From positions 62,001-126,000 of the forward strand of contig NZ_AULF01000010.1 in NCBI RefSeq assembly GCF_000425145.1: 64,000 nt of DNA, in the 5' to 3' direction. Positions within the stretch are counted from its first letter, which is position 1. Each line of letters begins with the position of its first letter. The notes under the pieces are model-generated. The model saw nothing but the letters and a program-made list of their open reading frames with translations, had not been told where the DNA came from and searched no databases. Position numbers and translations under genes: made by a program. Source of the DNA: Pedobacter glucosidilyticus DSM 23534. GTDB taxonomy: Bacteria > Bacteroidota > Bacteroidia > Sphingobacteriales > Sphingobacteriaceae. Below, one piece after another: positions 32,544-37,529 of this stretch.

Positions 32544-34613
32544 TTATAGGTTTATTTCTAATGCTGGTTGTCTTTTTAAAACATGGGTATAAATTCCATT
32601 TTTTCGAGCTTGTTCTAACATATTTTCTATTTTATAATCTTTGTTTTTACCATCTATAATAAAGCTTTTTGTTTCATAAAGTTTTGCTAAGTGTGGCAAA
32701 TCAAAAATTTTATCTCCACTTAAAAGCAGCCAATCATGCTTGGTTTGGTCATCATCCAGATGTCGTATTATTTTTAAGCTTTTACGCTTAATTTTTATTA
32801 CGTTATTATATTCTTTATGGGTTTGGGTATTGATGATAGATAGTTTAGTAATTCTGCAACTATCTAAGTAAGGTTTAACAGAAAATTTATAAGTGTATTC
32901 ATCAGGATTTAAATCGGTAAATAAAGTAGCTGTTCTTCCTTTTAATAGGGCAACAGCCGTATTTTTACGTAGGGTAAAGAATAGTATTTTTTCTTGCTGT
33001 ATGTGCTGTAAAGTATGATAACTATGTATAGCTATTAGAAGTACTGTTAACGAGCTTATGATTTTTAGCTTTAAAATAGGATGTAAAAACTTTATCAAAA
33101 GGAGTAGTAAAATGATATACATCAGGATGATTTCAGATTGATAAAGCCAAACCTGAGTGATATTGGCATAAGGAATTTGTTCTATCAGAATCAAAAACTT
33201 ATTGGTGAGATAAATGGCTTGATTAAGAAATGCACCTAGGATGTTCGCTAGCACATCTGAAATTGGCGCTATAAGCAAAAATCCTATGCCTCCGTACATG
33301 ATAATAATAGCGGGTAAAGCCATGTATAAGTTACTTATGATAAAATAAAGAGGAAATTGATGAAAATAATATAAGCTTATAGGTGTAGTGGCTATTTGTG
33401 CGGCTATAGATACACTGGCACATTGCCACATCCAATCTAAAATTTTGTTTTGTGGTTGGTACCAATGGTAAATAATAGGTTGTAGGTATACCAAAGCCAT
33501 CACTGCTAAAAAAGATAACTGGAAACCAACATCCATTAAATTAAACGGATTGATGATTAAAATAACGAATGCTGCTACGCCTATAACATTAAAAATATTG
33601 GTTTTAATACTTTGATATTTAGCAATCAATATCAGCGAAAGCATTAAAGCGGCTCTTAAAATAGAAGGAGCAAGACCTGTTATCAAAGCATAAAACCATA
33701 TTAAACCCAGCATCAGCATAAGCTTAACTATTTTTCCATAACGCAGTTTCTCTAAAGGTTTAAAAAGAAGGTTTAACAGTAAGACCACAATAGCCACATG
33801 CATGCCCGAAACAGACAAAATATGTAAAGTACCTGTATTGGAATAAGCTTGAAGAATTTGAGGATCTAAATCTGCCCGGTAGCCCAAAATTAAGGTAGAA
33901 GCAACTGCTTTAGAATCTTCATAAGCCAAATATTTTTTAAACTTTTCTACTTGTTTTTCCCTAAATTTTAAAGCAAAACTGATGATAGGATTCCCTTTTT
34001 CTGATGCCAGTTTAACCGTTTCTTTTAGGTTTATAAAGCTTTGATGATAGATTTGTTTATACGCTAAAAACCTTTTATAATTAAACTCGGCAGGATTATA
34101 AGCAGGTTCTGTATCTTTAATTTTTGATTTTATGAGTAATAAATCTCCATACCTGTAAGGAAATTTTTTGGTGGTATCATAACGCATGGCTAACAATAAG
34201 TTGCCTGATGTTTTTAAAAGCTTTTGATTGACCACATTATGTTTTACACTAACTGTAAACCTTGCTATATCTCCTTTAAGCTTGGGTTGCTCGGTAATAA
34301 TAACTAAATGATGATGGGCCTGATGTTTAGAAAAATGATGCTTTTGATAAATTTCTTTAGACGAGTTGCAAAGGATAATACCTGTAAAAATAAACTGTAG
34401 CGCAATTAAACATGCAGGTATATAATTATATTGGTAAAGCTTCAAGTACTTGGTTATAAGTAAGTATACCATTAACACAATTATATTACTTATCCATAAA
34501 ATACACCAAAAAGCATGAGGTTGTATAGCTAAACCGATAGCCAAAGAAATACCGATAATGAAAAACCATAAATACCTGAAGAATGGAATTTCTCCTTTAA
34601 AATATGCAATCAT
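32544..34613 (-). CDS. comEC: ComEC/Rec2-family DNA-uptake channel
   Basis: This is a 689-residue inner-membrane protein. It has an N-terminal soluble DUF4131-type domain (about 90-200), then a competence domain with the signature GTLHILSVSGMHVAIVVLL (about residues 262-280), and eight or more membrane helices. The C-terminal metallo-beta-lactamase nuclease domain seen in many ComEC proteins is not evident: no HxHxDH motif is present. Bacteroidota forms are often shortened like this. It is transcribed in the same direction as a helix-hairpin-helix/barrel gene 62 bp upstream, suggesting a joint DNA-uptake role. Confidence 0.88.
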   Translation of the reverse strand: MIAYFKGEIPFFRYLWFFIIGISLAIGLAIQPHAFWCILWISNIIVLMVYLLITKYLKLYQYNYIPACLIALQFIFTGIILCNSSKEIYQKHHFSKHQAHHHLVIITEQPKLKGDIARFTVSVKHNVVNQKLLKTSGNLLLAMRYDTTKKFPYRYGDLLLIKSKIKDTEPAYNPAEFNYKRFLAYKQIYHQSFINLKETVKLASEKGNPIISFALKFREKQVEKFKKYLAYEDSKAVASTLILGYRADLDPQILQAYSNTGTLHILSVSGMHVAIVVLLLNLLFKPLEKLRYGKIVKLMLMLGLIWFYALITGLAPSILRAALMLSLILIAKYQSIKTNIFNVIGVAAFVILIINPFNLMDVGFQLSFLAVMALVYLQPIIYHWYQPQNKILDWMWQCASVSIAAQIATTPISLYYFHQFPLYFIISNLYMALPAIIIMYGGIGFLLIAPISDVLANILGAFLNQAIYLTNKFLILIEQIPYANITQVWLYQSEIILMYIILLLLLIKFLHPILKLKIISSLTVLLIAIHSYHTLQHIQQEKILFFTLRKNTAVALLKGRTATLFTDLNPDEYTYKFSVKPYLDSCRITKLSIINTQTHKEYNNVIKIKRKSLKIIRHLDDDQTKHDWLLLSGDKIFDLPHLAKLYETKSFIIDGKNKDYKIENMLEQARKNGIYTHVLKRQPALEINL

Positions 34614-34675
34614 AGGATAGAAAAAATGAACAGATTTTTTGTAGATGAAAAATCAATTCATGAAAAACATGTTAA

Positions 34676-36739
34676 TTAAAATTGATACCTTATTTGAGCT
34701 CTAATTTCTGATCTTAAATTCCCATCTATCTGGTCTAAACCAGAGCCAATGGTCTCTAAATCTGTATAATGTGTAAAGCTGTATTTAAGCCAAAAATCAA
34801 TACCTCGTTTTAAAGTATATCTGCCGTTTAGATAAAATCTAAATCCTTTATTTTGAAAGCCTGGGATAGAGAAACCGTATAATACATCATTTTCATAGGC
34901 ATATATTCTGGTATCAAAACCTTCGGTATTGAAATAAGCTATCCTGGCATTTCCTGATAATTTAGAGCTTAGTGGATTATAAAGTACATCCTGATAAAGC
35001 AATAAACCATAATTATTTTGAGTACTTTCTCTCTTAAACTGCGTTACTTCTGCCCGGTTTCTTAAGCTAAAACTTTTGTTAAGGGCATATTGAATTTCGA
35101 AGCGATAGTTTTGCCGTCTTACAGTTTCTAAAGTATTAATAGCTGTATTTGCTCCAGAAATATTTTGTTGTTTTTCTTCTATTCTATATCTCAGAATAAA
35201 TTTAGTGGTTCTTTTTGGCGTATAAGTAAACTGGCTAAAAAGCTCGTGTCCTACAGAAGGTGCATCAACTCTAAATCTTAACCATGGGAATTTAAATAAA
35301 TCTGTATATACGTTAAATTCATATTTTTTTCCAGATTTAAATTGTAAACCTCCAAAAAATCCTCGTTCATTAAATGCCAAACTACCTTCGCTAATCCCTT
35401 GGTTAAAATAAGAGTAATAGTCTTTCTGGTAATTTCTATGGAAAACCAAAGCAGAAATTTGTGGTGTTAAACTAGCAATGGCTCCATTTATAAAAGCTAT
35501 GCCCGAGTTTACACTATGGGCAAGTTCTCCAAATAAATAAATATTATTTACCGTATAACTATAGTTTGCGCCTAAATTGGTAAGTTTTCTTCCTGTAAAT
35601 TCAAATTGATTGTAAACAGCATTTCCGGGTGCGAAATTCTCACTGTAGTTAGATTGATAAGCCGTTAAACCAACCGATAATTTGCGATGGTTGTATTGTA
35701 AATTGCCTCCTAATACCAATTGTCCTATTCGGTTTTTATTGGCTAACTCGTTTGGAGTGCGGTGTAAACCACTTATTTGTAAGGATGTTATTTCTGATAA
35801 ATTGGTAGCTGCGTTTAAGCTACTTCCTGCATCTAACCTTCTGAAGGATATGAAAGGTGTGAAATCAAATTTTCCGAAATTTATTTGGGTAGCAAAGCCT
35901 CTAAAAAAAGAAAACTCATTAATAGAAGTATAAGGTCTTAAACCTAAATCTTGTTTAGCGATAGAAAATAAATCGGCACCCTTACCAAAGCTTAAACCGC
36001 TCCATAAAGTTAAGCCTTGTCCAAATTGTAAAGAGAAATCGCCTAAAACTATTTTTTTAAATCTAGATACATCTTTAACATATAAACTAGCAGAGACAAA
36101 ATCTGGCCCCAGCGTACGATTTTGGGTAGTCCAAAATTGCTCGCCAGCATCTTTATCCATATTTAAAGAAAACTGTAGGTTGTTAAGGTAGTTAAATCTG
36201 TAACGCGTAAAAACTCGGTCTGGTGTTCCTAAATAACGTGATCTACCTGATTCTTCCGGGATATTAAAACCTGCTTGTTCTTCTAAAATGCGACCGTATC
36301 TTACAATTAAATCGCTTCTACCTTCTTTCCTTAAATTTGCCCAACTGAAGTTTTCAAAGCCTGTAGGCGAATTAATATTGCTAAAGTTTAGTAAAGTTCT
36401 AATGGTTTGTAAATCAAATCCATCAATACTTTGCAGTTCTAAAACATCAATCAATTTACCGTTTACTGCAATATGATCTAATAAGTTGCTTATTTGTAAA
36501 GGGTTTAAAAATACCAATTCTTGCAACTCGTCTCTGCTGGCTTTATTAAGGTTTAATGGGTTTCTGCGATAGAAATTTAAGCGTTCAACAAGTTCGGTAT
36601 AATCAAAATCTTCTGATTGATTTTCGGCTATTACTTCTAAAATATATTCAATAATGGGGTCGTTAGACTGCTGTGCCTTAACTCCCATACTTAAGAAAAG
36701 AAATCCCGAAAGAAATAAAAATTTAATTTTAGAAAGCAT
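34676..36739 (-). CDS. Helix-hairpin-helix domain plus outer-membrane beta-barrel protein
   Basis: This is a 687-residue protein. It has a Sec signal (MLSKIKFLFLSGFLFLSMGVKA), an N-terminal helix-hairpin-helix region (about 30-125, with LNLNKASRDELQELVFLNPL and LIDVLELQSIDGFDLQTI) and then a long barrel-like part of alternating strands ending RAQIRYQF, with a terminal Phe. HhH units of the ComEA kind bind DNA, so a barrel with such a domain near ComEC suggests a DNA-uptake port. The ATG at 36739 is preferred over a TTG four codons upstream, and it overlaps the preceding gene by 11 bp, so translation is coupled. Confidence 0.75.
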   Translation of the reverse strand: MLSKIKFLFLSGFLFLSMGVKAQQSNDPIIEYILEVIAENQSEDFDYTELVERLNFYRRNPLNLNKASRDELQELVFLNPLQISNLLDHIAVNGKLIDVLELQSIDGFDLQTIRTLLNFSNINSPTGFENFSWANLRKEGRSDLIVRYGRILEEQAGFNIPEESGRSRYLGTPDRVFTRYRFNYLNNLQFSLNMDKDAGEQFWTTQNRTLGPDFVSASLYVKDVSRFKKIVLGDFSLQFGQGLTLWSGLSFGKGADLFSIAKQDLGLRPYTSINEFSFFRGFATQINFGKFDFTPFISFRRLDAGSSLNAATNLSEITSLQISGLHRTPNELANKNRIGQLVLGGNLQYNHRKLSVGLTAYQSNYSENFAPGNAVYNQFEFTGRKLTNLGANYSYTVNNIYLFGELAHSVNSGIAFINGAIASLTPQISALVFHRNYQKDYYSYFNQGISEGSLAFNERGFFGGLQFKSGKKYEFNVYTDLFKFPWLRFRVDAPSVGHELFSQFTYTPKRTTKFILRYRIEEKQQNISGANTAINTLETVRRQNYRFEIQYALNKSFSLRNRAEVTQFKRESTQNNYGLLLYQDVLYNPLSSKLSGNARIAYFNTEGFDTRIYAYENDVLYGFSIPGFQNKGFRFYLNGRYTLKRGIDFWLKYSFTHYTDLETIGSGLDQIDGNLRSEIRAQIRYQF

Positions 36740-37529
36740 ATCCAACGGCAATTTGAGGTGAATAACCTAGTACAGGATGAGAGCTAATAGCGAAATCAAG
36801 ATTTATCTTTTGATAAAGAATTCCGAAACCTCCAAACTGCTGGAAAGTATTAACAGAAGTGCCGCCTCTTAAAGCTAAGAAAGGAGCAATTTTATATTCT
36901 AAACCAGTTTTAAAATCTAATTTTCCGTTCAAAACCTGTTCTACTTCTGATGTTAGCAACAATTTATCTGAAAAAGTATAACTAGCACCAATTTGATATA
37001 AAGCAGGCAGTGTGTTACTTTCTGTTTCTGTATATTGACTTTTGTTAGGATTTGCTGCATGAGCTGCTATCCAGAAATTTTTAAAAATTTGATATTGAAA
37101 ACCAACTTGAAAGCTAAAAGTGTTAGTATTACCGTAATTTTGGATGCTTAATTGATGATAGTTAAGTGTTAAAGCTGTAGAGAAATTTTCTCCGAAAGAT
37201 TTGGCAAAACTAAGGCCCGATTTTAGCTCTTGATATACAGGAGAGCCATAAGATTGAAAAGATGCGCCTAAAGTGTATTTTTTTAAAGGTATTGCGATAG
37301 CGGCAGATTTAGTGCTGAGTTCTTTTACAGAAAATCTGTTCTCATAAGCAAGGGCAAATGTTATATTTTCAAGAGATGTAATACCTGCTGCATTGTTTTT
37401 AAGTGTCCAAATATCCTGAATAGCAACGCCGGCATTACCCATAGCTTGTATACGCGGACCGTTTAAGGTTTGGGTAAAAACCGTTTTAGAACAAAGTATA
37501 AAAATGAGAATGGTGTAAAATTTTATCAT
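36729..37529 (-). CDS. PorV/PorQ-like outer-membrane beta-barrel protein
   Basis: This is a 266-residue protein with a Sec signal (MIKFYTILIFILCSKTVFT). Its barrel repeats begin with GPRIQAMGNAGVAIQDIWT, which matches the N-terminal pattern of PorV/PorQ-type proteins (RxxGMGNAxVA). The C-terminus is PQIAVGYAF, with a terminal Phe. Such proteins form 14-strand barrels of the FadL fold, and some carry type IX secretion clients. Its stop overlaps the start of the HhH/barrel gene, so the two proteins likely function together with ComEC downstream. Confidence 0.8.
   Translation of the reverse strand: MIKFYTILIFILCSKTVFTQTLNGPRIQAMGNAGVAIQDIWTLKNNAAGITSLENITFALAYENRFSVKELSTKSAAIAIPLKKYTLGASFQSYGSPVYQELKSGLSFAKSFGENFSTALTLNYHQLSIQNYGNTNTFSFQVGFQYQIFKNFWIAAHAANPNKSQYTETESNTLPALYQIGASYTFSDKLLLTSEVEQVLNGKLDFKTGLEYKIAPFLALRGGTSVNTFQQFGGFGILYQKINLDFAISSHPVLGYSPQIAVGYAF

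Follow-up and report, generated by a model that had tools for sequence, protein, structure and literature searches.

We tentatively propose that two adjoining genes of Pedobacter glucosidilyticus DSM 23534, here called PORV and HHB, encode an outer-membrane gate, or part of one, for transforming DNA in those Bacteroidota that do not carry the barrel known from transformation in Riemerella. PORV is a FadL/PorV-like barrel, whereas HHB joins a helix-hairpin-helix (HhH) domain to a much larger barrel. HHB is probably co-transcribed with ComEC in this lineage and is substituted elsewhere by a transformation barrel, so the simplest account is that both barrels would take DNA across the outer membrane during its uptake. 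The pair was previously unstudied (our literature searches found no paper describing the HHB family), and it may be the missing outer gate in many Bacteroidota.

The initial annotation of the window (the whole 64,000-nt stretch of DNA that was analysed) described three consecutive minus-strand genes, PORV, HHB and ComEC, and the reading frames of all three are present at the positions given in Table 1. The identification of ComEC is certain: its match to PF03772 scores 191 bits (cut-off 23), DUF4131 is matched as well, and this is the only gene with a Competence domain in the source genome. The 11-nt overlap between the first two genes is likewise real, and -11 is the most frequent spacing among relatives.

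Table 1. Features of the PORV-HHB-ComEC locus; positions are those of the window.
Feature	Position	Strand	Basis
PORV, 266-aa FadL/PorV-like outer-membrane barrel, 14 strands, N-terminal plug helices	36729..37529	-	model, profile
HHB, 687-aa helix-hairpin-helix and large outer-membrane barrel protein, ATG start	34676..36739	-	ORF, profiles, model
HHB signal peptide, residues 1-22, then conserved Q23	36674..36739	-	sequence
HHB (HhH)2 domain, residues 60-118, ComEA-type, degenerate hairpins	36386..36562	-	profile, alignment
HHB barrel region, residues 141-687, ~24 strands	34679..36319	-	predicted model
PORV/HHB reading-frame overlap, 11 nt	36729..36739	-	ORFs; spacing conserved
ComEC, 689 aa, DUF4131 and Competence domains	32544..34613	-	ORF, domain profiles

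PORV scores only 55 bits against the NCBIfam PorV/PorQ model (NF033709), under its curated cut-off of 90. Its likeness to PorV and PorQ is nevertheless borne out by the fold: the predicted structure (pLDDT 91.5) is a FadL-type barrel with an N-terminal plug, and its best match in the PDB is PorV from the type IX secretion system (T9SS) translocon of Flavobacterium johnsoniae (8gl6_F, TM 0.79). PorV is also recovered by sequence with a profile built from PORV.

Of 28 loci drawn from 17 families, all but a few have PORV next to HHB, and so do most named loci. The exceptions are L047 and L057, according to their lists of reading frames, and L063, which has an intervening gene. An apparent fusion of the two genes in L057 was discarded as an overlapping start in the wrong frame. 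The pair is an ancient unit, spread across Bacteroidota. Linkage to ComEC has a much narrower range. HHB is followed by ComEC only in the Sphingobacteriaceae (our family f1) and close relatives, and loci and coordinates alike yielded no case of HHB beside ComEC outside that family. Within it, the consecutive order of all three genes persists at HHB identities down to ~39-45%, and the spacing from HHB to ComEC has a median near 0 (n=54). Because the genes overlap or abut, a PORV-HHB-ComEC operon is likely in the Sphingobacteriaceae on the evidence of gene spacing. The linkage first read from this locus therefore holds as an operon-like arrangement in one family; it is not general, and loss of PORV-HHB has not entailed loss of ComEC. 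One example is G253, where the pair is gone and ComEC is kept in the same neighbourhood.

In ~20 species of Pedobacter and Sphingobacterium, PORV is absent from the site while HHB and ComEC are kept, and HHB may therefore work without PORV in those species. Loci of this kind are L079, L081-L083, L085, L091, L097-L099, L101, L105-L107, L114, L118, L132, L141 and L147. Separately, HHB is split into two reading frames by apparent frameshifts in L087 and L146 (Pedobacter fastidiosus and a metagenome bin).

Profile matches to HHB occur in 212 of the 247 genomes sampled from the phylum, usually as a single copy, compared with 243 for ComEC and 190 for SprA; the weak matches among them (E ~1e-4 to 1e-25) are probably other HhH proteins. 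A match to HHB in G317 (C1:833116-834888) has 13 in-frame TGA codons and no TAA or TAG, and is probably a frameshifted or decayed copy. HHB is absent from the Flavobacteriaceae and other families, and has been lost in some lineages that retain ComEC. Family f20 carries SprA without HHB; the close resemblance of its SprA to the F. johnsoniae protein identifies the family as Flavobacteriaceae. Family f32 carries HHB without SprA. We accordingly rejected HHB as a component of the T9SS. The only sampled family without ComEC is f52, and all four of its genomes (G206, G246, G254, G285) also lack HHB. Across these genomes HHB follows neither the T9SS nor, informatively, ComEC. As side observations, the four f52 genomes carry SprA, and HHB lies ~19 kb from sprA in many f18 genomes (e.g. 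G330 C77, G390 C27, G365 C8).

The distribution of HHB is complementary to that of a second barrel. In R. anatipestifer, the barrel RA0C_RS04915 and the adjoining DUF5689 protein RS04920 are both needed for transformation, markerless mutants being non-transformable (PMC8459023). A barrel of ~900 aa with a CarboxypepD_reg domain adjoins a DUF5689 gene in HHB-less Flavobacteriaceae and in the families f18 and f19; it resembles the Riemerella pair in architecture and distribution, the match being one of domains, neighbour and distribution rather than of Riemerella sequence. Among 149 genomes of f18, representing 94 genera, 62 carry HHB and 67 the other barrel, yet only 5 carry both, where 28 would be expected, and 25 carry neither (Fisher 1e-15, ignoring phylogeny). 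On an SprA tree of 97 f18 genomes, a model of correlated evolution is preferred (LR 14.8, p 0.005), with 1 of 60 parametric bootstrap nulls as large, which places p at about 0.005 to 0.03; the test rests on few changes in HHB (7 by parsimony), single-gene trees and modest FastTree supports, and was run on this pair of barrels alone after the pattern had been seen. Where HHB is absent, the model fits a ~17x higher rate of gain for the other barrel. The three HHB-less f18 clades of more than one member, with 30, 21 and 2 genomes, each have the other barrel, and three HHB-less single tips have neither. Across the class (58 genomes), 19 have HHB only, 32 the other barrel only, 4 both and 3 neither, and the same test again prefers correlation (LR 14.5, p 0.006). 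ComEC was found in 7 of the 7 f18 genomes tested for it, and also in two Sphingobacteriaceae with neither barrel (G138, G253). A weak DUF5689 match in the source genome itself (C16) was considered as a pair of the Riemerella type; the neighbouring 1080-aa reading frame shows no similarity to the other barrel by BLAST, and so it is not one.

The main rival to our proposal, doubtful but quite possible, holds that PORV-HHB is a general outer-membrane unit for transporting or assembling protein, lipid or polysaccharide, and that its place beside ComEC is incidental. The pair is widespread whatever the position of ComEC, each occurs without the other alongside, and the recurring neighbours outside the Sphingobacteriaceae, named from their sequences, are housekeeping-like (purE, purK, hpt, adk) and give no other hint of function. 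It is also built like PorV-SprA or BamG-BamA, and the nearest fold to PORV is that of a T9SS shuttle partner. Against it, the pair is dispensable, being missing from the Flavobacteriaceae and other families and having been lost repeatedly, and HHB does not follow the T9SS. Such a role also leaves unexplained why HHB should be replaced by a barrel of the transformation type.

A fusion of ComEA-type HhH units to a barrel had been anticipated at this locus, and both halves are recovered. The family profile matches ComEA, and structure prediction, the check suggested at the time, gives helices up to residue 139 followed by ~24 strands (pLDDT 86, pTM 0.82). No solved barrel is close, the best match in the PDB being MtrB at TM 0.40, and a search of PHROGs gave no match. 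The inward-facing barrel residues have a median net charge of +10, compared with -1 in PORV, by a crude parity estimate on the predicted model, and a positively biased lumen would fit the passage of DNA, if weakly.

The same features could describe a large porin or receptor whose specific substrate is a nutrient polymer, the ComEA-derived HhH domain being a structural relic. The weak PDB matches do include TonB-dependent receptors and AlgE beside MtrB, and a positive lumen would suit such a substrate as well. We nonetheless regard this reading as improbable, as no transporter or polymer-degradation genes recur beside HHB, the gene is usually present in one copy per genome, and the predicted model has no plug-like domain between the HhH domain and the barrel.

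The HhH domain itself is ComEA-type but has degenerate hairpins. In a single sequence it reaches 18.9 bits against PF12836, under the cut-off of 27, whereas the family profile matches solved structures of ComEA (8dss and 8dfk) with E-values of 2e-4 and 1e-3 over residues 63-123. This suggests that the fold is probably derived from ComEA. HhH proteins usually grip the DNA backbone through GhG hairpins. Both GIG hairpins of ComEA align opposite non-GhG residues in HHB, GhG is kept in either hairpin in 0 of 105 homologues, and residues 24-118 have a median net charge of -11 across the same set. On this evidence the usual grip on the DNA backbone is gone, and we rejected the role of DNA binder that the initial annotation gave to the HhH domain. 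That annotation also supposed an uptake system without a separate ComEA, which is contradicted by the source genome: it encodes a ComEA-like protein of 292 aa (C6:134470-135348) that is anchored in the membrane at its N-terminus and has three HHH_3 units, a canonical GIG hairpin being present in one of them, and such a protein is present in 41 of 41 relatives. Its architecture matches that of RS02645 of R. anatipestifer, a protein with three HhH that is essential for transformation (PMC8459023), and a separate ComEA is required in Porphyromonas gingivalis too (PMC11532111). The original model of a one-piece receptor-channel, in which the HhH domain of HHB binds DNA, replaces both ComEA and a secretin and feeds ComEC directly, draws on the ComEA-type domain, its fusion to a barrel and the adjacency of ComEC, but the lost hairpins, the acidic domain and the separate ComEA-like protein make it very unlikely.

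Two observations concern the ComEA-like gene alone. It is directly followed by an adenine phosphoribosyltransferase-like gene (L065, 4471-5349 for the ComEA-like gene itself), and in the close relative G013 (C1:310090-310963) in-frame stops and a change of frame interrupt it, HHB being intact there.

We therefore return to PORV-HHB as a gate for transforming DNA. Hypothetically, the large, positively biased barrel of HHB would let DNA through the outer membrane, and PORV would be in contact with this barrel as its FadL-family partner, as PorV is for SprA and BamG for BamA. A FadL-family partner beside a large barrel is an established theme in Bacteroidota (PMC10994853, PMC12611786, PMC12578637). 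The separate ComEA-like protein would hold the DNA once it is in the periplasm, and ComEC would then take it across the inner membrane. Rather than binding DNA, the HhH domain at the N-terminus of HHB would serve in the periplasm for docking, for instance to the ComEA-like protein, or as a plug. In other words, the outer-membrane role in DNA uptake first suggested for this locus is made plausible by the complementary distribution with the Riemerella-type barrel, whereas its DNA-binding and ComEA-free parts have fallen away. In favour of the gate we count the gene order in the Sphingobacteriaceae, the anti-correlation of the two barrels, the absence of both ComEC and HHB from f52, the charge of the lumen, the theme of FadL-family partners and the gap stated for P. 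gingivalis (PMC11532111); against it, the confinement of ComEC linkage to one family and the genomes that have ComEC but neither barrel.

A wider evolutionary version, which we advance with much the same caution, is that PORV-HHB is a pilus-independent gate for DNA import, ancestral to much of Bacteroidota and replaced several times by the RS04915/DUF5689 pair, with its ComEA-derived HhH domain converted from DNA binding to docking. For R. anatipestifer, one outer-membrane barrel pair essential for transformation is known (PMC8459023). For P. gingivalis, DNA is said to reach the periplasm by an unknown route that does not depend on pili (PMC11532111), and it is this gap that PORV-HHB would fill if the proposal is true; two unrelated barrels would then replace each other in the same task. 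PORV-HHB is a named and widespread candidate for lineages without the RS04915-type pair, and the question becomes testable by gene deletion.

Compared with known systems, the ComEC of this locus is ordinary. A domain profile search found no Lactamase_B domain, and DUF4131 with Competence in its absence is the usual profile in Bacteroidetes (PMC6299819); relative to other ComEC genes, only the operon partners are out of the ordinary. PORV shares its 14-strand FadL-type fold with the PorV/PorQ family, BamG and FadL, and differs from them in its small size (266 aa), its short loops and its place beside HHB rather than sprA or bamA. HHB can be aligned over residues 63-123 with solved structures of ComEA (COG1555, HHH_3), but is unlike ComEA in having lost both GhG hairpins, in being acidic there and fused to a barrel, and in sharing its genome with a separate ComEA-like gene. 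Another close parallel is RS04915/RS04920. Both are two-gene outer-membrane units of Bacteroidota built around a large barrel, and their distributions are complementary. They nevertheless have no Pfam domain in common: the RS04915 type combines CarboxypepD_reg with a region resembling a TonB plug and is partnered by a DUF5689 protein, whereas HHB has an HhH domain and a PorV-like partner. For HHB, neither CarboxypepD_reg nor a DUF5689 partner was found by domain search or among its neighbours.
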